This document shows positions 28,549 to 42,113 of a stretch of 54,555 nucleotides of DNA, in pieces (the stretch's first letter is position 1; every line of letters begins with the position of its first letter). The stretch lies in NCBI GenBank assembly GCA_946408355.1, contig CAMJRX010000014.1, positions 1 through 54,555 on the forward strand, written 5' to 3'. Origin of the DNA: an uncultured Selenomonadales bacterium (lineage in GTDB: Bacteria > Bacillota > Negativicutes > Selenomonadales > Selenomonadaceae). Under the pieces are notes generated by a model, which did not search any database, had not been told where the DNA came from, and worked only from the letters and a program-made list of their open reading frames with translations. Made by a program: the position numbers and the translations under genes.

Positions 28549-29568
28549 ATGGCAACCCAACAAGAGGTCATCAAAAAATTTATGGCGTCACTGGACAATA
28601 CAAATTTATCGAGCGAGACGGCTCTTAACGCGGTGATTAAATATGCCACGAATTACAAATGTTATACTATTCAAGAAGTTATCGACGCAATGATAAAAGA
28701 CTGCCAAAATGCCAAAAGTGCCGACGATTTTTTGAAAACCTATTGCGGCATTAATCTCGACAATGACGACACTGGCGCAATAACCGGTTCCGACGCGGGC
28801 GGCTCCATTGAAAAAACCGCCGAATCAATAGTTCCCGAAAAAGGCATGCTTATAGAGTTCACCAACGGCAGTTGGTTCACTACGGAAGATGGCTTGATCG
28901 TCATGCTTGGCGAAAGAATTGCTCCTAAAGATGAAAGCGACAATATGCGGGAAAAATATTTTGAAGAATTTTCCAAACAAGAAATTTACATATGGCGAGC
29001 AATTTACACTTGGTGGATTGAGGGCGGGCTTAAACTCATTTCCGACAGCTACGGCGACAATTACAGTTTCGCTTCCACAACTGCCACAACGAAAAAACTT
29101 TGGATTGTTTTTGACTACTATGAAGATGACCCTGACAGTACGGAGCTAACGGCAACGTGGGGAGGTCCTGTTCACGCACGGAGATCCACTAACGATATTA
29201 AAATCCATGTCAATATGAAATATTACAACAACATTGACATGACGAGTGAGGACGGTAAGAGCGAAGACGCATCATTATATTTTGACCGTTGTATGGCACA
29301 TGAATTAACACATGCCGTAATGCGCACCAGTATCAATTACCACGACTATTTGCCCGCCTTCGTCAAAGAGGGCATGGCGGAATTAACGCACGGAATTGAC
29401 GAATTTAAGACGAATGACATAGAAAAATTAGCGGGCGACTATTCTCTCTTAGCTCAATCTCTGGTTTTCGACGAGGAACCCGTTACTATTTCGGGCGTCG
29501 ATAATCCGTCTTACGCCGGCGGTTACATGTTCTTGCGCTATCTTGCTAGGCAACGACTTAACAATTAA
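28549..29568 (+). CDS. secreted-type zinc metallopeptidase, N-terminal part of a frameshifted gene
   Basis: 339 aa; ATG with GAGGAGG upstream. The first 85 residues are a helical N-terminal domain; the middle is a mixed domain of a kind I associate with exported Selenomonadales proteins (recollection, not searched). The active site is HELTH at residues 251-255 with a downstream EGMAE (E274 or E278), the third-ligand arrangement of gluzincin peptidases. There is no Sec signal peptide. The frame ends in RYLARQRLNN at a stop that interrupts the natural continuation. One base too many (near 29552-29555) would restore a single protein of about 520 aa with RTX-like repeats, as in 29543-30121. Type I secretion is inferred from those repeats. 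Confidence 0.7.
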   Translation: MATQQEVIKKFMASLDNTNLSSETALNAVIKYATNYKCYTIQEVIDAMIKDCQNAKSADDFLKTYCGINLDNDDTGAITGSDAGGSIEKTAESIVPEKGMLIEFTNGSWFTTEDGLIVMLGERIAPKDESDNMREKYFEEFSKQEIYIWRAIYTWWIEGGLKLISDSYGDNYSFASTTATTKKLWIVFDYYEDDPDSTELTATWGGPVHARRSTNDIKIHVNMKYYNNIDMTSEDGKSEDASLYFDRCMAHELTHAVMRTSINYHDYLPAFVKEGMAELTHGIDEFKTNDIEKLAGDYSLLAQSLVFDEEPVTISGVDNPSYAGGYMFLRYLARQRLNN

Positions 29569-30121
29569 TAACAGCACGTCCTTCACTACAGTTGAAACTT
29601 TTAACGGCGACGATTATATTTCAAACTGGGGCGACAACGTAACAATGCTCGGTGGCGCGGGCGACGACACCATTGGCAACTACGCAAAAGCTTACATGAA
29701 CGGCAAACTTGCTGCGGATAACGTTGGCAAAAACGTTAAAATTTTCGGCGATGCGGGTGCTGATTCAATCGAAAATAGCGGCGCAAATGTCACGATAAGC
29801 GGCGGTGCTGGCAATGATGAAATTATCAACAGCGGTGTGAATGTCTCAATTAACGGCGGCGACGGTAACGATACATTTATCTACAAGCCCGGCGAAGGCA
29901 CCGATAAAATTTTCGACTACGACAGCAACGATATATTGACGATTCTCAAGGCGGACGGTTTGGAGGGCGGCACGTTCAAAAGTTCTAAGTTCAGCGGCGG
30001 AGATTTGACATTAACGATAAAAGGCGGCGGCAAAGTTATTTTTGACAGCGCAACCAATATTAATAATTTCAACATCAACGGCATATTTTACAAAATTAGC
30101 GGCTCCAGGCTCGTTAAGTAA
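29543..30121 (+). CDS. RTX-like calcium-binding repeat part of the same frameshifted gene
   Basis: 192 aa in the +1 frame relative to the metallopeptidase frame, overlapping it by 26 bases. It has no ribosome site and only a TTG at its start, so it is not an independent gene as far as I can see. It contains nonapeptide-like repeats (GGAGDDTIG, GDAGADSIE, GGAGNDEII, GGDGNDTFI) that bind calcium in RTX proteins exported by type I secretion, followed by a C-terminal region with GKVIFDSA, also usual for secreted RTX proteins. It is the exported C-terminus of the protein above, separated by a single-base insertion. Confidence 0.7.
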   Translation: MLGNDLTINNSTSFTTVETFNGDDYISNWGDNVTMLGGAGDDTIGNYAKAYMNGKLAADNVGKNVKIFGDAGADSIENSGANVTISGGAGNDEIINSGVNVSINGGDGNDTFIYKPGEGTDKIFDYDSNDILTILKADGLEGGTFKSSKFSGGDLTLTIKGGGKVIFDSATNINNFNINGIFYKISGSRLVK

Positions 30122-31601: not shown

Positions 31602-32990
31602 ATGACTAAGATTTTAAAGCACGAACTTTTTGCCCAAATTCCAAGCGTTGACGAAAGTTTTTATCACGCAAAGTTACAAGCGGCTCTGAAAACTTTTAAT
31701 AAGAAAATTATCGTGCTCGACGACGATCCGACCGGCGTCCAAACAGTCAACGGCATTTCAGTTTACACGGATTGGACTGCGGAAAGTATTGCGGCGGGTT
31801 TTGCTGAGAAAAAATCTATGTTCTTTATCCTTACGAATTCCCGCGCCTTTTCTGAAACTAAAACTCGCATTGAGCATAAAAAAATCGCCGAGCGTATCTG
31901 CGCGGCGGCTGAAAAATTTGGCAAGGATTTTATGATTGTAAGTCGTTGCGATTCGACGTTGCGTGGACATTATCCGCTTGAAACTCAAATGTTGCGTGAA
32001 ACTTTAGAAACTTGCGGCAGGAAAATCGATGGCGAAGTTTTAATGCCGTTCTTTAAAGAGGGCGAACGCTTTACAATAGGCGACGTTCACTACGTGCAAG
32101 AGGGAGATTATCTCGTTCCCGCCGCTGAAACGGAATTTGCTAAGGATAAAACTTTCGGCTACACGAATTCTAATCTGGCGGCTTACGTCGAGGAAAAAAC
32201 TTGTGGCGTGTTTAAAAAAGAATCCGTTACTTGCATAAGCCTTGATAAATTGCGCGGCGGCGACATTGAAAAAATTTCTGCGCGGCTTGAAAATGTTTAC
32301 GACTTCAACAAAGTTATCGTCAATGCCGTTGATTATGTTGATGTGGAAATTTTCGCGCTTGCTTTGCTTATGTCTAAGAAAAATTTTTTGTTCAGGACGG
32401 CGGCGGCGTTCACGAAAATTATTGGCGGCGTCGAGGATAAAAACTTTCTAACTAAAGCTGAACTCGTCGACGAAACAAATTTCAACGGTGGCTTGATAAT
32501 TGTCGGTTCACACGTCAAAAAAACTACCGCGCAACTTGACGAGCTGAAAAAAATTCCCTCCGTCGCGTTTATTGAGTTTGACGTTTTAGACTTGAGCGCA
32601 GTCGATAAAATTATTCAGCAAGCGGAACAAAATATTTCACATGGACAGACAACGGCGATTTACACTAGCCGAAAAGTTTTAGACGTTGGCGACGCAGAAA
32701 AAAATCTCGCGGCATCCGTAAAAATTTCCGAAGCACTCACGAGTATTGTCAATCGGCTAAAAGTTCGTCCGAAGTTTTTAATTGCGAAAGGCGGCATAAC
32801 TTCCAGCGACGTGGGAACTAAAGGTCTTGGCGTCAAAAAAGCTCTTGTACTCGGTCAAGTGGCGGCTGGCGTTCCCGTTTGGAAAATCGGCGCGGAAAGT
32901 AAATTCCCCGACATGAGCTATATAATTTTCCCTGGCAATGTCGGTGCCGTTGATACCTTAAAAAAAATCGTTGAAATGCTCAATGCGTAA
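31602..32990 (+). CDS. four-carbon acid sugar kinase family protein (DUF1537)
   Basis: 462 aa from the ATG at 31602, chosen because GGGAGG lies seven bases upstream; an upstream frame of 26 codons has no ribosome site. N-terminal domain: VLDDDPTGVQTV, SRCDSTLRGHYP. C-terminal nucleotide-binding domain: AKGGITSSDVG and FPGNVG. The family (OtnK/DtnK type) phosphorylates four-carbon sugar acids such as threonate or erythronate. No partner dehydrogenase or aldolase is next to it, so the substrate is open. Its last 11 bases overlap the convergent dynamin-like gene. Confidence 0.85.
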   Translation: MTKILKHELFAQIPSVDESFYHAKLQAALKTFNKKIIVLDDDPTGVQTVNGISVYTDWTAESIAAGFAEKKSMFFILTNSRAFSETKTRIEHKKIAERICAAAEKFGKDFMIVSRCDSTLRGHYPLETQMLRETLETCGRKIDGEVLMPFFKEGERFTIGDVHYVQEGDYLVPAAETEFAKDKTFGYTNSNLAAYVEEKTCGVFKKESVTCISLDKLRGGDIEKISARLENVYDFNKVIVNAVDYVDVEIFALALLMSKKNFLFRTAAAFTKIIGGVEDKNFLTKAELVDETNFNGGLIIVGSHVKKTTAQLDELKKIPSVAFIEFDVLDLSAVDKIIQQAEQNISHGQTTAIYTSRKVLDVGDAEKNLAASVKISEALTSIVNRLKVRPKFLIAKGGITSSDVGTKGLGVKKALVLGQVAAGVPVWKIGAESKFPDMSYIIFPGNVGAVDTLKKIVEMLNA

Positions 32991-34788
32991 TTTGAATCTC
33001 GCCGATAAGATTTTCCGTTCGTGTTAAAAGTTCGGCAAGTTTTTCGCTTTTAACTTTCTCATTAGCCGTTTGATTCTCGACGGCTTTTATTTTTTCGTTG
33101 AAAGTCGCGATAATCGGATTAACGTTTTGCGTCATAAAAGTTTGCACGCCAATTAAAATGTCCCGCCCAATGTCGTCAGCAAGGTCATTGAAGCCCGACA
33201 TAATTTCATTGCGTTTCCGCTGAAGTTCGCGTTGTTGCTCTTCAGCTTTTTTGCCTTCGCGGTGGAGCATGAAAATCGAGAATAACACAGCGACTCCCGC
33301 CATTGCCGCGCCAAAAATTTTTGAACCATTGCCCGTAAACGCGCTCGCAATTCTGTTAACGGTGGTCGGCTGGCTTACAATAGTCTCTTCAAAGAACGGC
33401 AGACTTTTTACCAAATTACCAAGTCCGTTACCAATCGGTGCCGAAAAAAGCCCCAAGTCCTCCGCGCCAAAAAAAGTTACAAGTGCTTTGGTTGCGTTGC
33501 CCGCGAAAATGCCCGCCTCGCTCGTGACGATTTGAACTGCAGGTTGAGCAAACTGCGCGGCAATCTGTGCTCCTTCCTGTGCAACAAAAGCTCCGGCTAC
33601 GGCTCCGCCTGTACCTAAAACCGCCGCGCCGCCTTGAGCTAATCCGCTTGCGCCTTGAGCCTTCAAACGGGTTGAAAAATTCAGTTGGACTTGCTGAACA
33701 AAAGACGACTGCTCATAAGTTTTTAAGTCGGATTCGCTTTGCTCGGCAAAAGCTTTTATGCGGTCGGAAATTTTTTTCGCGCAGTCTTCAGCGGAAATTT
33801 TTACTCGTTCCTGCGCGTCGGCAAGTTTACGTTTATCAGTGTCTTCGTCTTTAAAGGTGAGACTTTCGGCGGTATCACGTCCGCGCCTTGAAACTTCCGT
33901 TTTAAAGTTTGAAATTATCCCGTCAATGTCTTGAAGGCATTCGCGCTTGCCGTCGAGTAAAATTTTTTTGCCATGACGAAAAGTTTCAATCAAAGCAGCG
34001 AAGTCAGAATTATCTTTATCGGCGGTATTGCCCGAAGCGTTGCGAATTTCGGCGGCGATTGTATTCAACGGCAAATTAATTTTCTGTAGAACGCCCTTTT
34101 CCGCGACGAAGTGATTTAAATTATTGATGAAAACTTCGCGCCCACTACGCTCCAGCCGACGATTTTTCCTACGTTCGTCATTCTCTTCTTGCGCCTTGAA
34201 ATAAGACGCCGTGTCTACAAACGACAAATAAAGCTCTTTTGGGTCATAAGGCTTAGTAACTTTTTTCAAGTCCTCGTAGATAACTTGTTGCTGTTCGGGG
34301 ACGTTGCCAAGCGCGGTTCTGTCCATTTTGTTGACGACTAAAACCATATTTGCGGCTCGTTTCTGCTCAATCGCCAATTCGCGGAAGTGGTCTCCCATGC
34401 GTTGACTAAAGCCCTCGTTCGTTATAACAAAAATTAACAGCGCGGCATGATTAATTTGGTCGTAAGTAATTTCGTCGTGGTCGGGGCGCAGTTCAGTATG
34501 GATACCTGGCGTGTCAACTATTTCTAAGCCGTTCCATTCGTAAGGCGTTGAATCTTGCGTAGTGATAGCTGCGCCGATTGCAACGTCTTCGCCGGTGAGC
34601 ATTTTAATAATACTCGATTTGCCCGCGCTGTATTGTCCGACGAACACCAATTTAATTTTGCCGCTGTCGTCGGGGAAAATTTTCGGCAGGTTTGCGGCGT
34701 CAATGCCGAGCCGATTAAATTCCTCTGTGACTTCGCGCAAAAGTTGTGCGCCTTCCTTTGTAAATCTGCTAAGCTGAAATTCTTGCAT
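32980..34788 (-). CDS. dynamin-like GTPase, LeoA type (last gene of the accessory operon)
   Basis: 602 aa. GTPase motifs are complete: G1 GQYSAGKSS (51-59), a threonine-rich switch I (AAITTQDST), G3 DTPGI (92-96) and G4 NKMD (153-156). Long helical stretches follow. Two hydrophobic segments are seen: a Gly/Ala-rich stretch (SGLAQGGAAVLGTGGAVAGA) and a likely membrane helix (AAMAGVAVLFSIFMLH) around residue 510, suggesting a membrane paddle. Arrangement and motifs match the LeoA/HP0731-like bacterial dynamins. It starts six bases after the neighbouring dynamin gene, whose stop codon is part of its AGGAGG ribosome site, so the two are made together. Paired LeoA-LeoBC proteins are, to my recollection, the Eleos anti-phage system. 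Confidence 0.82.
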   Translation of the reverse strand: MQEFQLSRFTKEGAQLLREVTEEFNRLGIDAANLPKIFPDDSGKIKLVFVGQYSAGKSSIIKMLTGEDVAIGAAITTQDSTPYEWNGLEIVDTPGIHTELRPDHDEITYDQINHAALLIFVITNEGFSQRMGDHFRELAIEQKRAANMVLVVNKMDRTALGNVPEQQQVIYEDLKKVTKPYDPKELYLSFVDTASYFKAQEENDERRKNRRLERSGREVFINNLNHFVAEKGVLQKINLPLNTIAAEIRNASGNTADKDNSDFAALIETFRHGKKILLDGKRECLQDIDGIISNFKTEVSRRGRDTAESLTFKDEDTDKRKLADAQERVKISAEDCAKKISDRIKAFAEQSESDLKTYEQSSFVQQVQLNFSTRLKAQGASGLAQGGAAVLGTGGAVAGAFVAQEGAQIAAQFAQPAVQIVTSEAGIFAGNATKALVTFFGAEDLGLFSAPIGNGLGNLVKSLPFFEETIVSQPTTVNRIASAFTGNGSKIFGAAMAGVAVLFSIFMLHREGKKAEEQQRELQRKRNEIMSGFNDLADDIGRDILIGVQTFMTQNVNPIIATFNEKIKAVENQTANEKVKSEKLAELLTRTENLIGEIQITH

Positions 34789-34794
34789 AAAAAT

Positions 34795-37260
34795 TTACCT
34801 CCTGCGAAGTTTCTCGCGATATTCGGCAACAAAATTCAACGCCGTTTGATTACGCTGTTGTTTGGCAAGCTGTTCAATTGCGTCGAGAGCGTCGCTGATA
34901 AATTCGTTGCTGACAGACGGACTGTTAAACGCGCTTTTAATTTTCTTTAAGTCTTCGCTGAATTTACCACTCGGAATGAATTGGATTGTTCCCGACTTTG
35001 CAGAACGTTTTAATTTTGTTGACTGATTATTTTGCGGCTGAGGCGGCGGCGTGTAATTATTTTTAACAGAAACATTCGTGATAATCGGGACGCCCGCGAT
35101 TTGTTGCGCGATTTTTAAATTTGTCGCGTTAACCTTACTTTTCGGGAAGACGGCAACGGCATTTTCGGATTTTTCATCGTCTTTATCGAAATCTGTTGGG
35201 TAAAAATCAACATCGAAGTCGCTGTTCAAAATATTTTTTACGGTGTCGGAAAGTTCTTCTGCCGGATTCGTAACCGAAATTTTTTCGCCCAAAAGGTCGG
35301 ACAGTTCAGCCGTATTTAAATTTGAGCGGTCAGCAAAAACAACCATAAGTTCGCCTGGCACTCGCGCAATCCCGTTAACGGAAGAGATAAAGCCCGCGCC
35401 CTTGTACTCAATCGCCTCCGCAAAAAGTTTGGTATTGAGGTCGCTGAATTCCCAGAACAAAGTATTTGCCAAATCGCCTTGACTTTTGCCGAGCCGCGCC
35501 AACATAAATTGATAGCCACAAAGCAAATCATGGAATTCGTCGATACCCTTAGCTAAAATTTCTTTGTTAAAAATCTCAACAACTTGATTGTGCATCTTGT
35601 CGAGCATTTCATAACTTGGCATCGTCAAACCGTCGCGAAGTTTTGCTTTTGCCTCGCGAATCTTTTTTTCTTTGCCATCAAAGAAAAATTGCCCTAATAT
35701 ACCGACTACCATTGAAGCAATTCTTAATGGCGGAAAAGCAAAGCCCGCTAAACCTACTAATGCCGACGCATATTTCCCCCAAGGCGTCGTGCCCTCAAGC
35801 TTAATGCTAGTTTTCGTGTTGCCGTGAAAAGCGTAGGAAAGTTCTTGCGTCAACTCGTCGCTAAGTTCCTTGCGCTTGCGTTCACACTCGTCCGCAAAAT
35901 CTTTAAGCAACATTTGATATTGTTGATCGAAGTGCAGACTTTGCAAACGCTGTTGCCAATGCTCGTTAACTTTATCGTCTTCGTAGTGATTTTCGGCAAA
36001 ATTATAAATCGCGGCGTCGAGTTGCTCCGATAATTGCTCGTAAAGATTATCCAATTTTGTTTGCGACCGCTGTAAAAATTTTTCGCGCCACTCGCTAAGT
36101 TGTTGCCGCTTATTAAACCAAATATCGCTCTCAAGCAAAGCGGTTGCGCTGTGCTCGTAAATTTTCAAGATAATGTCGCTCATGGGAACTGATACGCTGT
36201 CGGCAAAAGTTTTTATCCGCAAAAATCTGCCGTCGTTGCGCACTTTATCCAAAATAAAATCTTCCACTTCAACGAACCGGCTTATCTCAAAAACTTTGGG
36301 ATTTTTATCTTGCGCCTGATACGCGGAAAGTAAATGCGTCGCAACAAATTTTATTCCGCTCCAATCCTGATTGTGACTGGTGGCAAATTGCTTGAACTGT
36401 TGCAACGTGGCATCGACGCTTGACATGTCGGACAGTTTATCTTGCAAGTCTTCAATGTCGAGTTCGTCGTTAATGTTAAAGTTCATTTTGACGTTGATGA
36501 CGCCGAGAACAGGTTTGCCGAAACTTTTCAGTTGAGCGAGACAAGCCGCCTCGTCGGGTTGGGGTGCGTCGCTCGTCAGCAGGAATAAAATTAAATCCGC
36601 CGCTTTAGCCGCCTCCATTGCAAGTCGTTCATCTTCTGCGCCCTCGAACGCACAAATGCCAGGTACGTCCGTTATTTTTAAGCCGTTCCAATAATAATCG
36701 CGAACGTCCCGCGTTGTACGCTGTGAACCTTTGCCGATTGATTTTCCGTTGCCGTGCGTCAAAATTTCCATGAGCGTTGACTTGCCCGCCATTGTTCGCC
36801 CATAAACCACGATTGAAAAATCTTTCGACCGTTCGCGCAAAGCTTTAATGTCGTCACGAATCAGCTTGACACGATTAGTCAGTTGCCGCAAATCTTTTTT
36901 CTGCGTATCAACAAGTTCTGTATTTTGGATACGCTCAATTTCGTTTTGCTCCGCGTCGGTCTGCGAAAGATTACGCGATTCCGCGATTAACGTATCCTTA
37001 ATCTCGTTGTACTTGCCCGCCGCCAATTTGAAACCTTCCTCAGCTGATTCGCGACACTTAGCAAGCTCCTGTTCGATTGTGCTATCACTTGGCTTGCGAA
37101 CAGATTTTTTCGCGGAAACATTTGGCAACGGCTTCTGCGCGGGCGGTTCGGGCGTCGACGATATATTCATAAATTCCGCTAACGACTTGCCGCAACTCAT
37201 GCAAAATTTTACGTCTTGACGAAGAATTTCCGCGCCGCAGTAAGGACAAAATTTCAACAT
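34795..37260 (-). CDS. zinc-ribbon dynamin-like GTPase, LeoBC-like, with shared C-terminal domain
   Basis: 821 aa. A zinc ribbon at the N-terminus (C5, C8, C20, C23), a coiled coil at about 60-145, then a GTPase domain: P-loop GRTMAGKST (154-162), TTRDVRDYYWNG, G3 DVPGI and a G4-like segment NVKM that is degenerate compared with NKxD. A hydrophobic stretch (ALVGLAGFAFPPLRIASMVV) around residue 515 may insert into membranes. The last 65 residues (from GTIQFIPSGKF) are about 55 percent identical by hand alignment to the C-terminus of the small protein 40379-40783. ATG with AGGAGGT upstream. It is the first of the two dynamins in the operon; the two probably form hetero-oligomers. Confidence 0.78.
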   Translation of the reverse strand: MLKFCPYCGAEILRQDVKFCMSCGKSLAEFMNISSTPEPPAQKPLPNVSAKKSVRKPSDSTIEQELAKCRESAEEGFKLAAGKYNEIKDTLIAESRNLSQTDAEQNEIERIQNTELVDTQKKDLRQLTNRVKLIRDDIKALRERSKDFSIVVYGRTMAGKSTLMEILTHGNGKSIGKGSQRTTRDVRDYYWNGLKITDVPGICAFEGAEDERLAMEAAKAADLILFLLTSDAPQPDEAACLAQLKSFGKPVLGVINVKMNFNINDELDIEDLQDKLSDMSSVDATLQQFKQFATSHNQDWSGIKFVATHLLSAYQAQDKNPKVFEISRFVEVEDFILDKVRNDGRFLRIKTFADSVSVPMSDIILKIYEHSATALLESDIWFNKRQQLSEWREKFLQRSQTKLDNLYEQLSEQLDAAIYNFAENHYEDDKVNEHWQQRLQSLHFDQQYQMLLKDFADECERKRKELSDELTQELSYAFHGNTKTSIKLEGTTPWGKYASALVGLAGFAFPPLRIASMVVGILGQFFFDGKEKKIREAKAKLRDGLTMPSYEMLDKMHNQVVEIFNKEILAKGIDEFHDLLCGYQFMLARLGKSQGDLANTLFWEFSDLNTKLFAEAIEYKGAGFISSVNGIARVPGELMVVFADRSNLNTAELSDLLGEKISVTNPAEELSDTVKNILNSDFDVDFYPTDFDKDDEKSENAVAVFPKSKVNATNLKIAQQIAGVPIITNVSVKNNYTPPPQPQNNQSTKLKRSAKSGTIQFIPSGKFSEDLKKIKSAFNSPSVSNEFISDALDAIEQLAKQQRNQTALNFVAEYREKLRRR

Positions 37261-37277
37261 GCACTCAACCTCCTAAG

Positions 37278-37379
37278 TTAACTAAAAATGGAACTGATAA
37301 TGGAGCCGATAGCGTAAATAATCGTGCCGCATATCGCCAAAACAATTTCAATTATAGTGCGCAAAATCATCGACAACAT
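37278..37379 (-). CDS. 33-aa hydrophobic peptide
   Basis: A frame of 33 codons from an ATG at 37379, five bases after the YkgJ-like stop, with GGGG upstream. Sequence pattern: MLSMILRTIIEIVLAICGTI, then IYAIGSIISSIFS (two pieces of one chain). Almost entirely hydrophobic with one Arg and one Glu, thus a single membrane segment. It ends 17 bases before the first dynamin gene. Real or not, it fills the only gap in the operon and fits the theme of small membrane proteins. Confidence 0.5.
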   Translation of the reverse strand: MLSMILRTIIEIVLAICGTIIYAIGSIISSIFS

Positions 37380-37384
37380 TTTAA

Positions 37385-37636
37385 TTACCCCGCTTGAAAC
37401 TTTTTGCAAACTTCCTTGTTGATACGGTAAAAATCTTCGCGGCTTATTTTGTCAGACAAATTTTTTTCGTAAAGTTCATCGACGCGGCAAAATATCGGAC
37501 GCTCATTATAAATCGTGCAAAGGTTCGTTGCCTCGTCCAAATATTTACAGACGCCGCCGGGCTTAGCCATATGCCGCGCAAAAAAAACTTCGCCAACCCG
37601 TCGACAGCAACAGCCGCAACGTTCACACGGAAACAT
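37385..37636 (-). CDS. YkgJ-family cysteine cluster protein
   Basis: 83 aa from the ATG at 37636, preceded by GGAG; an 18-residue longer version would overlap the upstream gene deeply. The signature CERCGCCCRRVG near the N-terminus and the later CKYL, CTIY and FCRVDEL cysteines are those of the YkgJ (Fe/Zn-chelating) cysteine cluster family, which lacks a firm biochemical role. It overlaps the preceding gene by 14 bases and is clearly part of the operon. Its presence suggests a metal or redox-linked step, but that is speculation. Confidence 0.75.
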   Translation of the reverse strand: MFPCERCGCCCRRVGEVFFARHMAKPGGVCKYLDEATNLCTIYNERPIFCRVDELYEKNLSDKISREDFYRINKEVCKKFQAG

Positions 37637-38006
37637 TTCTATCCGGCTCCGCAATCTCAAATGACATGTCGCCCTTTTGAAGTTCGCCACGAAAATCTTC
37701 CGTCAAGCATTCCAAATCCAGCGGCTTAGTTTGCGCCTCCAACACGTGATAACTTTCGTCCGCGTCCTCAAAATACAGCGCATAGGAACATTGATAATTT
37801 TTTTCGTCGACAGCAAAAATTTTGAACTCGCCGCTGATATAACGACAATTTTTTTCCCGTTCCTCGTCAAGAATAATTTTCTGGAGTGCGTCATCGTATC
37901 TGCCCTGCAACTCTTCCAGGCTGACGTAAAACCCCACGCGATTTAAATGCTTGCCGACCTCTTGAAAAATATCTTGTACTGCCTCAAAAGTTTTTTCGTT
38001 AAACAA
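37623..38006 (-). CDS. small soluble operon protein, family B member 1
   Basis: 127 aa from a TTG at 38006 with GGAGGG upstream. No membrane segment. Residues about 28-65 (SLEELQGRYDDALQKIILDE, then a CRYISGEF segment) match the protein 38481-38918 (TLEDLQRVYTKTVDEVI, then SRYVGGEF), and both continue with beta-rich segments and an acidic C-terminus ending near FEI(A/P)EP. They are paralogues without a recognised family. Function unknown. Confidence 0.65.
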   Translation of the reverse strand: MFNEKTFEAVQDIFQEVGKHLNRVGFYVSLEELQGRYDDALQKIILDEEREKNCRYISGEFKIFAVDEKNYQCSYALYFEDADESYHVLEAQTKPLDLECLTEDFRGELQKGDMSFEIAEPDRNVSV

Positions 38007-38020
38007 AGCTTATCCCTCCG

Positions 38021-38407
38021 TTAAATACTCATGCCGAGTTCCATTTCCATTTCGTCGGTAATATCGGCCTCTTGACGATTGCGGCGAATTTTATTGCGAA
38101 TGGCGGGTGGCAATTCACTTTCGGGCAACGTGCGCCGTGTCGTTTCCTCAAGCCATTTGCCATGCCCGACTTTGTGATAAAGTTTATGCTCAATTTTTGC
38201 GTGAACGCTGTCGAGAAGTCCACCAACTATCATTGCCGCTGCTTTGAACTCTGGACCAAATTCCACTGACGCCGCACGGAGCATTTGCGAAACTCTGGGA
38301 ATAAAATCGTGAAGCCATTCCATTATTCCGTCCCAATTATAAACGATTGCCGCGACACCCAACATTCCGACAAGCCCCGCGCCGATTAGCCATGCTGCTG
38401 GTACCAT
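38021..38407 (-). CDS. small membrane protein, EMELELG-tail family member 1
   Basis: 128 aa from the ATG at 38407 (AAAGGGG upstream; an upstream in-frame start 18 codons earlier lacks a ribosome site). Residues about 4-25 are hydrophobic and Gly-rich (AWLIGAGLVGMLGVAAIV). The middle is an amphipathic helical region with a WLHDFIPRV segment. The tail carries the family signature: KWLEETTRR, then ESELPPAIRNKI, then ITDEMEMELGMSI at the very C-terminus. It is the most divergent of four proteins with this exact tail. Confidence 0.7.
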   Translation of the reverse strand: MVPAAWLIGAGLVGMLGVAAIVYNWDGIMEWLHDFIPRVSQMLRAASVEFGPEFKAAAMIVGGLLDSVHAKIEHKLYHKVGHGKWLEETTRRTLPESELPPAIRNKIRRNRQEADITDEMEMELGMSI

Positions 38408-38480
38408 TTTAATTTCCCCTTTCAAAAATTCGGGAGCGAGGAAAATTTCCCCCGCCCCCATTTAAAACGTCCGCGTAGAT

Positions 38481-38918
38481 TTATTGCACGCGGTTAAGAT
38501 TTTCGCGATTATATTTATCCCGTGCACTTTGGCTCGGTTCGGGAATTTCAAACTTAATATTTTTCTCCGCCGCAAGCTGTTCACGAACTTTAACGGACAA
38601 CTTTGAAATGCTCAATTCGCGACTCTTTGCCTCAAGCTCAAAAATTTTCTTCTGCTCGTTTTGGAAGAAGAGCTTGTAACCGACCGTGTAGCCTTTTTCG
38701 CTGACGTAATCGAGATTGAACTCGCCGCCAACGTAACGGCTATTGCTCTTGTCCTCTTCCTTGAAAATGACCTCGTCAACCGTCTTGGTGTAAACGCGCT
38801 GCAGGTCTTCAAGCGTCATTGTCGGGCGAAATTCCTCAATCAGCTCGTTAATCATGTTCATCAAAACTTCTTTGCCGGCAATAATTGCCTCGCCGACCGT
38901 GACTCCTTCTTTGCCCAC
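38481..38918 (-). CDS. small soluble operon protein, family B member 2
   Basis: 145 aa from a GTG at 38918, with AGGAG upstream and a leader nearly identical to those of the next two genes (GATAAATC-GTG-GGCAA). The first ten residues (MGKEGVTVGE) resemble the start of the EMELELG-tail proteins 38939 and 39338, while the body is the paralogue of 37623-38006. It looks like a family B protein with a swapped 5' end. No known domain. Confidence 0.65.
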   Translation of the reverse strand: MGKEGVTVGEAIIAGKEVLMNMINELIEEFRPTMTLEDLQRVYTKTVDEVIFKEEDKSNSRYVGGEFNLDYVSEKGYTVGYKLFFQNEQKKIFELEAKSRELSISKLSVKVREQLAAEKNIKFEIPEPSQSARDKYNRENLNRVQ

Positions 38919-38938
38919 GATTTATCATCTCCTAAAAA

Positions 38939-39319
38939 TTAAATAGATATGCCAAGTTCCATTTCCATTTCGTGCGTAATTTCTACTTCGTGTTCGGTGA
39001 TTTTGGCGCGGATATACGGCGGAACTTCGTCTTCTATTATTTCGCGTGTGGTTGTTTCTTCCATCCATTTGCTGTCTTCTTTGTAGAAAAGTTTATGTCT
39101 GATTGCCACGATACCGGCTCTGACTTTTTCGCCGACGATGACCGCCGTAGCTGCGATACCGCGCATTTTTTCCGCAATAGATTTCTTGAGATTCGTCAAG
39201 AAGTTGTACCAGAATTCTTTAAATTCTTCCCAGTGGTAGACGCGCGGAATTAAACCCACAGCCGCGAGTATATCAGCTATCATTGCTTTGACGGTCTCAA
39301 TTAATCCGTCCTTGCCCAC
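38939..39319 (-). CDS. small membrane-associated protein, EMELELG-tail family member 2
   Basis: 126 aa from a GTG at 39319, AGGTGATAAATC upstream. The first 36 residues, with the hydrophobic stretch MIADILAAVGLIPRVYHWEE, are identical to those of the next gene. The middle contains FLTNLKKSIAEKMRGIA (amphipathic helix), then the signature KWMEETTTRE, EDEVPPYIRAKI and EITHEMEMELGISI. It arose from a recent tandem duplication with 39338-39718. Confidence 0.72.
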   Translation of the reverse strand: MGKDGLIETVKAMIADILAAVGLIPRVYHWEEFKEFWYNFLTNLKKSIAEKMRGIAATAVIVGEKVRAGIVAIRHKLFYKEDSKWMEETTTREIIEDEVPPYIRAKITEHEVEITHEMEMELGISI

Positions 39320-39770
39320 GATTTATCACCTGCCAAATTAAATCGACATGCCAAGCTCCAATTCCATTTCGTGCGTAATTTCCACTTCTTTAGCGGCGAT
39401 TTTGTCACTGATATACGACGGAACTTCGTCTGCTTTAACTTCGAACGTGGTAGTTTCTTCCATCCATTTGCCGTCCTCTTTGTAGAAAAGTTTATGCTTG
39501 ATTTCGATTAAGGCGAAATTGATTCTTTTAGCAACGATGACCGTCGCATGTGCGATACCGCGCATTTCTTCCGCAATAGATTTCTTGAGATTCGTCAAGA
39601 AGTTGGCAAGAAATTCTTTAAATTCTTCCCAGTGGTAGACGCGCGGAATTAAACCCACAGCCGCGAGTATATCAGCTATCATTGCTTTGACGGTCTCAAT
39701 TAATCCGTCCTTGCCCACGATTTATCACCTGCCAAATTAAATCGACATGCCAAGCTCCAATTCCATTTCT
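39181..39770. repeat. tandem duplication, 399-bp unit
   Basis: The sequence 39181-39371 is repeated almost base for base at 39580-39770, 399 bp further on. It includes the 5' half of one small gene, the intergenic leader and the 3' end of the next. The rest of each unit has diverged, mostly in the central helical region. Confidence 0.85.
39338..39718 (-). CDS. small membrane-associated protein, EMELELG-tail family member 3
   Basis: 126 aa from a GTG at 39718, with the same leader as 38939-39319. Same first 36 residues and the same FLTNLKKSIAEEMRGIAHA helix; then VIVAKRINFALIEIKHKLFY differs from its twin. The tail has KWMEETTTFE, ADEVPSYISDKI and EITHEMELELGMSI. Tandem duplicate with selection or gene conversion restricted to part of the unit. 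Confidence 0.72.
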   Translation of the reverse strand: MGKDGLIETVKAMIADILAAVGLIPRVYHWEEFKEFLANFLTNLKKSIAEEMRGIAHATVIVAKRINFALIEIKHKLFYKEDGKWMEETTTFEVKADEVPSYISDKIAAKEVEITHEMELELGMSI

Positions 39771-40099
39771 TTCGTAATGTCTGCTTCTTGTTTGGCGATT
39801 TTGGCGCGGATATACGGCGGAACTTCGTCTTCGGTGACTTCGCGTTTAGTCGTTTCCTCCATCCACTTGCCTTCCTCTTTGTAGAAGAGCTTGTGCTTGA
39901 GTTGCGCAATACCGTCCTTGATTTTCTCGCCGACGATAACCGCCGCATGTGCGATACCACGCATAGCTTTTTGAATAGAAGCTTTCAAGTTCGTAAGGAA
40001 ATCGGAAAAGAACGCTTTGACTTCGTCCCAATGTTTGTAGACGTAATAAGCCGCACCGCCCGCCGCCGCGACTGCAGCAGCTACTAAAACAGGTATCAT
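39737..40099 (-). CDS. small membrane protein, EMELELG-tail family member 4
   Basis: 120 aa, ATG with AGGAGTGATTA upstream. The N-terminus is a clear Ala/Gly-rich membrane segment (MIPVLVAAAVAAAGGAAYYV), followed by YKHWDEVKAFFSDFLTNLKA, IAHAAVIVGEKI, and the tail KWMEETTKRE, EDEVPPYIRAKI, DITKEMELELGMSI. It shows that the group is membrane anchored by an N-terminal segment and carries a conserved, probably exposed, C-terminal motif. Confidence 0.72.
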   Translation of the reverse strand: MIPVLVAAAVAAAGGAAYYVYKHWDEVKAFFSDFLTNLKASIQKAMRGIAHAAVIVGEKIKDGIAQLKHKLFYKEEGKWMEETTKREVTEDEVPPYIRAKIAKQEADITKEMELELGMSI

Positions 40100-40125
40100 A
40101 AATTAATCACTCCTAAAAATTTTTA

Positions 40126-40374
40126 TCAATCAGCGACGTTTGCTTGCGCCGCCAATTTGTCACGAATATATTGCGGGAGTTCGTCGTCTGTGACTTCCCG
40201 CGCAGGGATTTGTTCAACGCGAATTGTTTTTTTCGCCTGTGAAAGAACTTCTTTAACGTGTTCTTCGGAGACTTCGCGCATTTCGACAGGTTCAAATACC
40301 GGCTGTTCTGCCGCGCCGTCGATAATTTTTTGCGCCGCCATGCCGCTCAACACGCCCGCTACGAACGGAATCAT
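40126..40374 (-). CDS. 82-aa small membrane protein with VSEEHVK and DELPQYIR motifs
   Basis: 82 aa, ATG with GGTGGTGATTGA upstream, five bases after the stop of the preceding gene. A Gly-rich hydrophobic N-terminus (MIPFVAGVLSGMAAQKIIDG) is followed by REVSEEHVKEVLSQAKKTI, which matches the C-terminal tail of the operon's AAA+ ATPase (VSEEYVKEQVAKGKGVI), and by TDDELPQYIRDKLAA, the segment shared with the EMELELG-tail family. It is thus a composite of two operon motifs. Confidence 0.7.
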   Translation of the reverse strand: MIPFVAGVLSGMAAQKIIDGAAEQPVFEPVEMREVSEEHVKEVLSQAKKTIRVEQIPAREVTDDELPQYIRDKLAAQANVAD

Positions 40375-40378
40375 TCAA

Positions 40379-40783
40379 TCACCACCCACGATTGCGAAGT
40401 TTTTCGCGGTAATAAGCAACAAAATTTAAAGCCTGGTCGTTCCAATCTATCTTTGCTCGACTTTCAATCATTTGAAGTGCGTGGCTTATGAATTTATCGC
40501 TGACATTCGGACTTACAAGCATATTTTCGATTTTCTCGAAGTCCGCGCCGAAATTGCCGCTTGGAATAAATTTCATGTCAGACAAGGAGCCGCGTCGGGG
40601 AGTGGAAGGCGTCTCAATATTTTTGCCCGCGCGGTCGAGTTGCCACTTTACGTAATCTTCCGAGACTTCAACTTTTTGAATGACATTGTTGACAACAACT
40701 TTCTTCGGTTTATCGTTTTTGCCGAGTGCAAAGCCTACGCCCGCGCCCGCCGCCAATGCCGCCCCGATAATCACTGGAATCAT
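40379..40783 (-). CDS. 134-aa membrane protein sharing the dynamin C-terminal domain
   Basis: 134 aa, ATG with GGAGATGATTAA upstream. N-terminal Gly/Ala-rich hydrophobic segment (MIPVIIGAALAAGAGVGFAL), then VEVSEDYVKWQLDRAGKNI (the AAA+ tail motif) and a C-terminal domain of about 65 residues beginning MKFIPSGNF and ending ALNFVAYYREKLRNR. That domain matches the C-terminus of the zinc-ribbon dynamin (FIPSGKF ... ALNFVAEYREKLRRR). It could compete with or recruit the dynamin. No known family. Confidence 0.72.
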   Translation of the reverse strand: MIPVIIGAALAAGAGVGFALGKNDKPKKVVVNNVIQKVEVSEDYVKWQLDRAGKNIETPSTPRRGSLSDMKFIPSGNFGADFEKIENMLVSPNVSDKFISHALQMIESRAKIDWNDQALNFVAYYREKLRNRGW

Positions 40784-40800
40784 TTAATCATCTCCAAATT

Positions 40801-41163
40801 TTATTCTGTAGACTTCCGCGCTAAAATCTCGCGTTCAACGTCAGCAGTAATATCGACTTCACCAAACGCCGCCGCAAGTTTCTCGCGCAAATAATTTGGC
40901 AACTCGTCTTTCGGCAAATCAAGCTTAGCATTTTCCTTGAGCCACTCGCCGTTTTCTTGATAAAAGTGACTGTGATTAACGGTCGCCACGCCGCCGCCGC
41001 TATTTTCCAACGTCACTATAGAAAAATACAAAATGCCCGCTTCAGAATATTTTTCGCGCAAAGCCGTATCAAGCTTCTCAATAAAATACAAAACTTTATC
41101 CCAGCTGTCGCCGAAAAGCGCGTTGCAAATCCGGTTCAGGATAGAATTAAAAGTTGACTTCAC
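40801..41163 (-). CDS. 120-aa operon protein, diverged EMELELG-tail family member
   Basis: 120 aa from a GTG at 41163 that overlaps the AAA+ stop (GTGA), so it is translationally coupled. There is no obvious N-terminal membrane segment. The C-terminal half keeps part of the family pattern: HFYQENGEWLKENAKL, KDELPNYLREKLAA and DITADVEREIL, but lacks the EMELELGMSI end. It is a distant member, perhaps a soluble partner of the ATPase with which it is coupled. Confidence 0.65.
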   Translation of the reverse strand: MKSTFNSILNRICNALFGDSWDKVLYFIEKLDTALREKYSEAGILYFSIVTLENSGGGVATVNHSHFYQENGEWLKENAKLDLPKDELPNYLREKLAAAFGEVDITADVEREILARKSTE

Positions 41164-42113
41164 TCCCTAATCACGCCTTTACCTTTGGCAACTTGTTCTT
41201 TAACATATTCTTCGCTGACTACGCGCTTTTCAACGGTGACGCCTTTGTTAGCATTCTTGCTGGCTAAAGTTTCCTCAACCGCCTCGAAGACCAAACTTTT
41301 ATCGACGATTTCAGCATTTTGACGCGCCGCCTTAAACGCCGCCATTAACACCGCGTTTGAAATGTCGGAGCCGGAAAGTCCCTCGTATTTTTCGGCAAGT
41401 TCATCAATGTTAATGTTATTGGGCATGGTCGGCAGAATGTAATGTTGCCAAAGTTTTTTGCGACATTCGAGGTCGGGAAGTTTAAATTCAATGTGCGTGG
41501 AAATTCTGCGCATAAACGCCGGATCGAAGTTAGAAATAAAATTCGTCGCGAAAATTACAAAGTCTTGATAATCGTTCATAACCATGAGCATAACCGAGCG
41601 CGTTTGATTAACGCTAACGTCCGTCGCGCTGGACATGTTGGTTACGCGCTTGCTAAGGATTGCGTCTGCCTCGTCGAAAAACAAAATGCTGTTAGTCGCC
41701 GCCGCCGCCTCGAATGCCTTGCGAATATTTTTGGGCGTCTCACCGACATATTTTGATTCAATATCGGCGTAGTTGACGGCAAGGATTTTTCTGCCGAGAT
41801 GTTTAGCAATAGCGTGCGCCGCCATAGTTTTTCCGGTGCCGGGTTCGCCGTAAAGATTGATTCCGATTCGGCGCGACTGCTTGTAAACCGCCTGCAAGCC
41901 CCAATCCTCGAAAACTTTCTTGCTATTCTCCGCGTAGTTGGCAACGTCCAAGATTTTGTCCTTGACCGCTTGCGGCAGAATTATTTCGTCGAACGAATAC
42001 TTCGGCTCTTCGGGGTAAAACTCAATCGGCGGCTCCTTGCTTTTCTTTGTCGACTGAACTTCGGCTTCCGCCTTTTTCTCGTCGTCGGGCGTGATTCTTT
42101 TCCATAAACTCAT
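41160..42113 (-). CDS. AAA+ ATPase, Vps4/SpoVK-like, first gene of the accessory operon
   Basis: 317 aa. Walker A GEPGTGKT (89-96), pore-loop-like KYVGET (121-126), Walker B ILFFDEAD (143-150), sensor 1 N191 in FATN, and arginine pair R202-R203. The arrangement is that of the classical (Vps4/katanin/SpoVK) clade. The first 35 residues are charged, with no transmembrane segment. The last 20 residues (VVSEEYVKEQVAKGKGVIRE) recur in the small proteins 40126 and 40379. ATG with AAGGAGGAG upstream. It may unfold or extract the small membrane proteins encoded next to it; this is inference from family and co-occurrence. Confidence 0.85.
   Translation of the reverse strand: MSLWKRITPDDEKKAEAEVQSTKKSKEPPIEFYPEEPKYSFDEIILPQAVKDKILDVANYAENSKKVFEDWGLQAVYKQSRRIGINLYGEPGTGKTMAAHAIAKHLGRKILAVNYADIESKYVGETPKNIRKAFEAAAATNSILFFDEADAILSKRVTNMSSATDVSVNQTRSVMLMVMNDYQDFVIFATNFISNFDPAFMRRISTHIEFKLPDLECRKKLWQHYILPTMPNNINIDELAEKYEGLSGSDISNAVLMAAFKAARQNAEIVDKSLVFEAVEETLASKNANKGVTVEKRVVSEEYVKEQVAKGKGVIRE

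Follow-up and report, generated by a model that had tools for sequence, protein, structure and literature searches.

An operon joining a LeoBC/LeoA dynamin pair to an AAA+ ATPase and a family of small proteins in a Selenomonadaceae-type genome

When an AAA+ ATPase, a row of small proteins and two dynamin-like GTPases follow one another in a single operon, do they make up one machine, or has a known dynamin pair been added to something else? The operon in question lies in a window of 54,555 nucleotides, the whole stretch of DNA analysed, which is contig C14 of its own genome (G000), that of an uncultured Selenomonadales bacterium. Fourteen open reading frames (ORFs), all on the minus strand from 42113 down to 32980, form it in the order AAA, T1, H1, H2, T2, T3, T4, B1, T5, B2, YkgJ, a 33-aa peptide, LeoBC and LeoA, the genome being of Selenomonadaceae type; T, B and H are protein names coined in this analysis. 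An earlier note on this DNA had proposed a membrane-remodelling or membrane-attack machine in which AAA+ and dynamin motors act on the small proteins. We find that AAA+, T and B constitute an uncharacterised cassette, a separate unit for which the dynamins are optional. The assembly is very probably modular, with anchors (T and H), an adaptor (B), a like-tagged AAA+ motor and dynamins that may or may not be present.

The AAA+-T-B cassette

The cassette was followed in 49 loci picked for T, B or AAA matches, a non-random sample that resolves into 50 clusters (L127, a near-copy of L126, is excluded from the count). The strict order AAA-T(n)-B is found in 31/50 clusters and T followed by B within two genes in 44/50; an adjacent AAA is present in 35/50 and missing from 15/50. 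YkgJ occurs in 15/50, Leo genes in four (six if the split operon of G014 and L127 are added) and an 889-aa dynamin in three. The profiles of two further partners, P613 (613-688 aa, 4/50) and TMZ (305-444 aa, with a hydrophobic start, 5/50), were built from the counted members themselves, so that these counts merely name them. The order is shared by several genera within the family and by G302 and G322, genomes that belong to other families. G098 has T-B without AAA, and T and B are fused in two clusters (L053, L135). Since the genus also holds lone T-B pairs, such as that on contig C41 of the own genome (L042), and a lone AAA elsewhere (L152), it is possible that T-B and AAA act in trans as sets. 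An obligate single machine does not fit these counts, which largely bear out an outcome that the earlier note had named as speaking against its model: the small proteins are widespread without dynamins, and 15 clusters have no adjacent AAA+. The cassette is therefore a separate unit that sometimes takes dynamins on.

The full gene order of the window recurs in G017 (L043), in G192 (L134; no YkgJ match) and in G014, where it is split over two contigs (L037, L140). The operon is thus no accident of assembly, nor is its order found in one genome only. Close relatives of the operon lie in metagenome-assembled genomes (MAGs) named as Selenomonadales/Selenomonadaceae, two of them from goat omasum, and the bacterium has close relatives that inhabit the ruminant gut. 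In a set of 60 genomes that includes the own one, AAA (E 1e-40) is found in 32 and LeoBC in 12 of the 36 same-genus relatives, as well as in the own genome, and a single-sequence search finds T in none of the 23 other genomes. That search had made T appear restricted to the genus, a view overturned by a profile search of 380 genomes of the class, which matches 78: the own genome, 59/65 other listed members of the genus, 13 elsewhere in the family and five in other families. Five of the 78 matches are weak (1.9e-4 to 6.6e-4), three of these in ORFs of 701-708 aa. Among 398 genomes of the phylum T is found in three, namely the own genome, a genome of the same family (1.8e-6) and one with a 700-aa ORF. 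Outside the genus the distribution is patchy; most genomes are drafts, hence absences are soft.

The ATPase shows the motifs of a classic AAA module (Walker A GEPGTGKT, Walker B ILFFDE and an RRI finger) and matches PF00004 (5.4e-31) and AAA_lid_3 (1.9e-8) in Pfam. It matches the IetA models of PADLOC (best 6e-40) and the IteA, CDC48 and CdvC models of NCBIfam (1.5e-37 to 4e-33, all below cut-off in the best 25 of 33), and its closest solved structures are VCP-like ATPases. Like CDC48, Vps4 and CdvC, it has the classic AAA module with its lid. Unlike them, it has a single AAA domain with some 35 residues ahead of it and bears a putative docking tail on the ATPase itself. The earlier description of the protein as Vps4/SpoVK-like is apt for the ATPase domain, which is CDC48/CdvC-like, but it does not extend to a Vps4-type MIT domain, none being found in the best 25 of 28 Pfam families. 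The likeness to IetAS is also limited, as the NCBIfam IteA model gives 129.6 bits against a cut-off of 510. Among the ten operon proteins scanned with Pfam and PADLOC (all but H1, H2, T3 and the 33-aa peptide), no protease family above cut-off represents the IetS serine protease partner, B1 matching a Zn-protease DUF below cut-off. The same ten give no match to the CD-NTase of type III CBASS (TRIP13, HORMA and CD-NTase).

The small proteins are mostly without known family. T1, T2, T4, T5, B1 and B2 match no Pfam family above cut-off, T2 and B2 match none in NCBIfam, T and B proteins have weak PADLOC matches only, and H1 finds no match in PHROGs. An assignment of T to PepSY_like (PF11396) was rejected: 10/25 T members match it at E <=0.1 (best 5.7e-4), and three T proteins of the window score 14.7-16.2 against a gathering score of 28.3. 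Judged by their sequences, T and B are homologous, the two profiles aligning over the same part (E 1.9e-5, probability 77%). AlphaFold2 models on shallow alignments (7 rows for B1, pLDDT 76; 16 rows for T2, pLDDT 63) have the same order of helix, three strands and helix, and the T motif forms the last strand and the following helix of the T2 model.

The like tag of the ATPase is a C-terminal tail that reads VTxKRxVSEEYVKxQ-like across genera. The KRxVSE-type pattern is found in 29/35 cluster AAAs and in 2/6 stand-alone AAAs examined, and two of the six cluster AAAs that miss it have VTEEYV/VAEEYV-type variants. The two stand-alone proteins end in RREISEAEY, the other four being without the tail, which rules it out as a mark exclusive to cassettes; it is also missing from the AAA copies that accompany the genus's plain T-B pair (L060, L061). 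A profile of 12 AAA tails from genomes outside the genus was run on 6700 non-AAA ORFs, the window included. Its top matches are small cassette proteins between AAA and T/B (E 8e-7 to 0.08, the match rows including some loci twice), with window H1 at 6e-4 and window H2 at 0.08 through its AAA-type copy. T tails come next, at E 0.24 to 2.7 (window T2 1.6), along with one unrelated-looking ORF at 1.5. The T-type copy in H2 matches the T profile with 25 bits, and P613 partners have by eye a T-like motif near the N-terminus (T profile 18 bits for L044). The link between AAA tail and T tail, drawn from these scores and a side-by-side reading of the motifs, is weak. We propose that this strand-helix element of the models is copied in the AAA tail and in the H motifs, which would dock through it on a B- or T-type sheet.

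The LeoBC/LeoA pair and its joining to the cassette

The earlier note took the two GTPases for a LeoBC/LeoA pair, and they are indeed one, with PADLOC matches of 5.7e-87 for LeoBC (PDLC03841) and 2.1e-89 for LeoA (PDLC03839, residues 2-599); the NCBIfam LeoA/HP0731 model gives LeoA 36 bits, below its cut-off of 325. LeoA has the motifs GQYSAGKS, DTPG and NKMD, and LeoBC has GRTMAGKS and DVPG, NKxD being absent at the expected place. Eleos is an anti-phage system. As in Eleos, the two genes are adjacent on the same strand and match the models over nearly their full length. Here, unlike in Eleos, the pair is joined to AAA+, T, B, H1, H2 and YkgJ, and none of the AAA+, T, B and YkgJ proteins scanned matches a Leo model of PADLOC. 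This LeoBC differs also in its zinc ribbon and its H1-like C-terminal domain, although some unjoined LeoBCs share them; the C-termini of H1 and LeoBC are 41% identical over 99 aa (2e-18).

Joined Leo pairs are known from the window, G014, G017 and G192 in this genus and from G225 and G226, near-identical to each other, in a second genus. This makes six of 45 LeoBC places, in a class in which 34 of 380 genomes have LeoBC, although some of the 45 are pieces of one gene and contig breaks may conceal more joins. The other places are on contigs without T, or have T more than 20 kb off in the T-profile table. In the neighbourhoods opened, which cover most unjoined LeoBC places, most LeoBC/LeoA pairs have no T or B alongside. 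In G225 a B domain is fused to LeoBC (residues 10-135, 88 bits). Other dynamins are also found at cassettes: in L046 and L054 the gene immediately upstream of AAA encodes a Dynamin_N protein of 891 and 889 aa (6e-15 and 1.4e-15), and the same position is taken in L125 by an incomplete ORF of 639 aa that shares about 51% identity with the 889-aa dynamin and is too partial for a Pfam match. LeoBC-LeoA is directly preceded by an 863-aa protein carrying two AAA stretches in G152 and by an AAA protein truncated at the contig end in G097; the LeoBCs of these two genomes are sisters in the tree.

How often would a dynamin stand near a cassette by accident? The own genome has Dynamin_N above cut-off at six places besides the window (two of them short), including a Leo pair on C18 and an 887-aa protein on C5, and from these places we estimate roughly a 2-3% chance per cassette of a dynamin within 5 kb. 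At least three seemingly independent joinings in about 30 cassettes lie above this expectation, related genomes making the count uncertain. The earlier note's picture of ATPase, small proteins and dynamins working as one machine gains from the shared tail, the B-LeoBC fusion, the domain common to H1 and LeoBC and the joins in a second genus, but the dynamins are optional parts.

The history of the pair can be followed among the close relatives, taking DNA identity as that of the best aligned piece per gene and atpD as the reference gene. Between the window and G017 (atpD 88%), identity is 92-98% for AAA, T1, H2, T2, B1, T5, B2, YkgJ and the peptide (AAA 94%, H2 and T2 98%) and 85-87% for T3/T4. 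LeoBC has 89% identity over its first 60 codons and 74% thereafter; the best piece of LeoA covers 852/1809 bases at 84%, with 63% protein identity; and H1 is split, 165/405 bases aligning at 95% with an overall protein identity of 61%. The 33-aa peptide has 94-96% DNA identity in G017 and G014. G014 (atpD 96%) has no Leo step, and apart from H1, of which 46 bases alone align in place, there is no comparable break; G192 (atpD 89%) gives 88% for AAA and 71-79% for LeoBC, a mild slope. A by-eye reading of the LeoBC tree places G017 beside the unjoined G015b and G010 (100/100), and further beside G192, the window and G014 standing elsewhere; support for the node uniting all six is weak (80/88). 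The LeoBC of G225 falls among unjoined LeoBCs of this genus (100/100). These comparisons suggest an exchange of Leo genes within a conserved operon; replacement, or a single gain with later loss, can explain the LeoBC pattern. Upstream of the operon the best aligned piece covers 123 bases for G017 and 154 for G014, and other ORFs flank it there, from which it follows that the operon has changed place between relatives.

Several Leo and dynamin loci outside the cassette are worth recording. The unjoined pair on C18 of the own genome is at L145:8323-12410, and the C5 protein, a relative of the 889-aa dynamin family without a cassette, is at L196:6847-9510. In G195:C110 an unjoined LeoBC-LeoA pair is immediately preceded by a YkgJ-like gene (L206:9175-9570), and YkgJ and Leo may be linked apart from AAA-T-B. 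The locus of G152, L211:1-14618 (G152:C81), is a distinct Leo operon with the 863-aa double-AAA protein, a LeoBC with five Sel1 repeats, LeoA, proteins of 263 and 1000 aa and an ORF in which an Hsp70-like DFGT motif can be read by eye, though it has no Pfam match.

Tape-measure likeness and the possible role of the operon

The N-terminal anchor of T2 is similar to a hydrophobic stretch found in phage tape-measure proteins (TMPs). When T2 was searched against the 60 genomes at E 0.01, five places outside T-like ORFs and one cassette partner were matched, all in frames of 853-1544 aa and all TMPs by PHROGs (3.3e-62 or better). T2 scores 75-113 against the five; in 200 half-wise shuffles for each the maximum is 53, so that 0/200 reach the scores of T2. 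The best pair, with a prophage TMP, has about 50% identity over about 42 residues, and by window score the matched part ranks second to fourth in hydrophobicity among the segments of either protein. In the reverse direction, a 51-aa TMP segment at E 0.05 finds 28 places: itself, 21 T proteins and six ORFs of 803-1544 aa, three of the six confirmed as TMPs by PHROGs. In PHROGs, phrog_28 is matched by 11/25 T members at E 0.01 or better. Against phage records the T2 anchor at E 10 matches 51, most of the best 40 of these being annotated TMPs, to which we give little weight, and the reverse query has one TMP match at 3e-3, the others among the matches listed having E >=1. Unlike a TMP, T2 has only 120 aa, belongs to a bacterial operon and includes a putative docking domain of B type. 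A strong likeness appears confined to T2-type proteins, and phage-gene descent, convergent mimicry and a common anchor design cannot be told apart as its origin. Two further ORFs match the T2 anchor, in a Ruminococcus MAG (L040:8483-11071, 862 aa) and a betaproteobacterial MAG (L041:8015-10702, 895 aa); perhaps they too are tape-measure proteins.

Our best reading is that the operon is an inner-membrane surveillance machine, perhaps directed against phage DNA injection. More fully, and as a tentative proposal, an undescribed AAA+-T-B membrane cassette would have recruited an exchangeable Eleos dynamin pair for defence at the inner membrane. We are led to defence by the membership of Eleos, the divergence of the Leo genes, the change of place, the TMP-like anchor and the precedent of SNIPE. 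SNIPE defence is reported to act at the TMP, and homology to a phage tail-needle protein is described for the N-termini of some SNIPE proteins (PMC13190303). SNIPE is a membrane nuclease, whereas here the anchor itself resembles a TMP and no nuclease family, GIY-YIG included, is above cut-off in the ten proteins scanned. T proteins would sit in the inner membrane through their anchors, TMP-like in T2-type members, and their cytoplasmic domain, homologous to soluble B, would end in the strand-helix docking element. The same element on the AAA+ tail and on H1 and H2 could gather motor, adaptors and anchors on a B/T-type platform. At the point of entry of a phage TMP into the inner membrane, or at a comparable lesion, T proteins may associate with the foreign segment, AAA+ would pull the assembly apart and LeoBC/LeoA would reshape or seal the membrane, so that DNA entry is stopped or damage limited. 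The sequences themselves show the gene order, the common motif, the homology of T and B, a single fusion, the recurrence, the divergence of Leo within an otherwise conserved operon and the similarity to TMPs, whereas the membrane site, the formation of the complex, the order of events and the anti-phage purpose are what we infer. A stricter version, a new class of immunity by tape-measure mimicry, in which the anchors co-assemble with the incoming TMP and the tag calls in the AAA+ extractor and interchangeable dynamins, which take the injection site apart and close the membrane again, we consider unlikely.

Several observations weigh against defence at the injection site, and some of them would suit membrane maintenance, a close rival that we rate only slightly less likely. 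Under this alternative AAA+-T-B is a housekeeping device for extracting or repairing membrane proteins, loosely in the manner of FtsH or Vps4, with T proteins as its adaptors to damaged membrane, and in some lineages the dynamins were added for sealing; the TMP likeness would reflect a common helix design that enters the membrane and stops at an amphipathic WDxV segment. The core T-B pair is near-universal and conserved, more like maintenance than an arms race: T is found in 33/36 same-genus relatives and the own genome by single-sequence search and in the 59/65 members noted above, AAA is similarly near-universal in the genus, the N-terminus of core T has a mean identity of 67% in 14, and core copies stand in surroundings that look ordinary by eye. 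The near flanks of the operon in the window also have a housekeeping appearance by eye. The TMP likeness is weak in T5 and T3 and nil in T1, and in the shuffles core T gives 0/200 for two of the five TMPs and 2/200, 39/200 and 95/200 for the others. Only five of the 21 T matches of the reverse search are below 1e-4, three of them near-identical T2s. PHROGs holds phage families only, so that its matches are phage by necessity; in Pfam at E 0.1 T members match no tape-measure family and have single weak matches to membrane families such as TrbL (0.0016). Annotated phages give no match at E 0.01 with the BLAST low-complexity filter on; the best 40 of the 51 records that the T2 anchor matches at E 10 all come from Staphylococcus phages and repeat one match at E ~3. 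Phage or plasmid carriage of the cassette was found neither in phage records at E 0.01, nor by a plasmid search, nor in IMG/VR scans. The Leo divergence step is present against G017 only, not against G014 or G192. Finally, DynA of B. subtilis, a bacterial dynamin likewise protective against phage, is described as acting late by delaying lysis and not at injection, and the term AAA is absent from the main text of that report (PMC8844932), which calls for caution over assuming dynamin action at injection. Maintenance, in turn, does not readily account for a T2 likeness that is specific in both directions, with non-T, non-partner matches that are long tape-measure-type ORFs (three of the six reverse ones confirmed), for a patchy distribution outside the genus, or for an operon that has been relocated between relatives and whose Leo pair differs. 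The anti-phage role of Eleos also speaks against it.

Two other explanations concern the dynamins. That an ordinary Eleos pair merely lies downstream of an unrelated AAA+-T-B, with common transcription and no common mechanism, would agree with the six joined places out of 45 and with the lack of T or B alongside most pairs in the neighbourhoods opened. It is improbable in view of the B domain fused to LeoBC, the domain common to H1 and LeoBC, joins in two genera whose LeoBCs fall in separate parts of the tree, another family of dynamins that lies upstream of AAA and gaps of 5-17 bases from YkgJ through the peptide and LeoBC to LeoA. A vesicle or secretion machine, in which dynamins and AAA+ release vesicles and T proteins are cargo adaptors, has a basis in E. 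coli LeoABC, where deletions of leoA, leoB and leoAB are reported to leave about 50% of vesicle markers (PMC4159319). It is highly improbable here, as the operon has no evident secreted cargo gene (by eye, without a signal-peptide test) and the majority of cassettes have no dynamin. The membrane-attack role offered in the earlier note finds no support, and defence or maintenance fits better.

We found no account in the literature of an AAA+ cassette joined to LeoA/LeoBC or to a tape-measure mimic, most subscription journals lying outside the search. The whole is an Eleos variant on an undescribed AAA+-T-B cassette, which may deserve a name of its own. If the surveillance reading holds, the Eleos dynamins would gain partners and a possible mechanism, neither of which we found described in the sources searched. 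The linking of AAA+ and dynamin motors through a common tag recalls the membrane work of eukaryotic Vps4 and dynamin, by analogy only, and the TMP likeness, if functional, would offer a handle on how bacteria recognise phage DNA injection at the inner membrane.

Operon layout and neighbouring genes

The coordinates of the operon are given in the table below. The single direction and tight spacing described in the earlier note are confirmed: AAA and T1 overlap by 4 bases, B2 and YkgJ by 14 (given a YkgJ start at ATG 37636), LeoBC and LeoA are 6 bases apart, and the gaps of the operon are 4-26 bases. Its count of about ten small membrane-type proteins is too high. With a 17-residue Kyte-Doolittle mean (KD17) of at least 1.6 as the mark, six of the 11 small ORFs qualify (H1, T2, T3, T4, T5 and the 33-aa peptide); H2 (1.48) is a borderline case, and the other four, T1, B1, B2 and YkgJ, are not of this type.

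Table. Genes and protein segments of the operon in the window
Feature	Position	Strand	Basis or remark
AAA: single-domain classic AAA+ ATPase, CDC48/IetA-like	41160..42113	-	no large N-domain; putative C-terminal docking tail
AAA C-terminal tail with KRxVSE putative docking motif	41163..41240	-	
T1: T-family, N-terminus non-hydrophobic	40801..41163	-	T profile 114 bits; max KD17 1.05
H1: N-terminal hydrophobic anchor, putative docking motif, LeoBC-like C-terminal domain	40379..40783	-	
H2: small protein, putative docking motif twice (AAA-type, T-type)	40126..40374	-	
T2: tape-measure-like N-terminal anchor and putative docking domain	39737..40099	-	model pLDDT 63
T2 residues 3-45: phage tape-measure-like segment	39965..40093	-	phrog_28 1.5e-8
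T3: T-family, tandem duplicate of T4	39338..39718	-	T profile
T4: T-family	38939..39319	-	T profile
B1: B-family, long helices, three strands and helix	38481..38918	-	B profile 139 bits; AlphaFold2 pLDDT 76
T5: T-family with hydrophobic anchor	38021..38461	-	T profile; KD17 2.22
B2: B-family	37623..38006	-	profile search
YkgJ-like CxxCxxCC metal-binding protein	37385..37636	-	PF03692 1.3e-5, above cut-off
33-aa hydrophobic peptide	37278..37379	-	KD17 2.47
LeoBC: dynamin-like GTPase, N-terminal zinc ribbon, H1-like C-terminal domain	34795..37260	-	Zn_Ribbon_1 1e-6
LeoA: dynamin-like GTPase	32980..34788	-	PADLOC LeoA 2.1e-89

T3 and T4 (38939-39718) have an identical start region and the same upstream bases, as expected of a tandem duplication, and G017 and G014 have a single copy at this position. 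Around other cassettes, a WYL-type regulator (PADLOC WYL 4e-24) lies upstream in L129:5388-6353 (G261), helix-turn-helix genes are seen by eye close to L044, L124, L126 and L130, and a kinase-like gene lies upstream of the L127 cassette. A defence-island context was considered from 10 proteins, mostly cassette neighbours, among them the WYL regulator, the kinase-like gene and the 863-aa AAA protein of L211; they are insufficient for such a claim. L054:2-1312 is a repeat-rich ORF, of leucine-rich surface type by eye, with a T-tail-like motif, SDLPAWAQKQI, which the T profile scores at 14 bits (E 4.6e-5 among 25 proteins). In the window itself, slightly past the downstream side of the operon, 29543-30121 encodes a Gly-Asp-rich repeat protein, RTX-like by eye.

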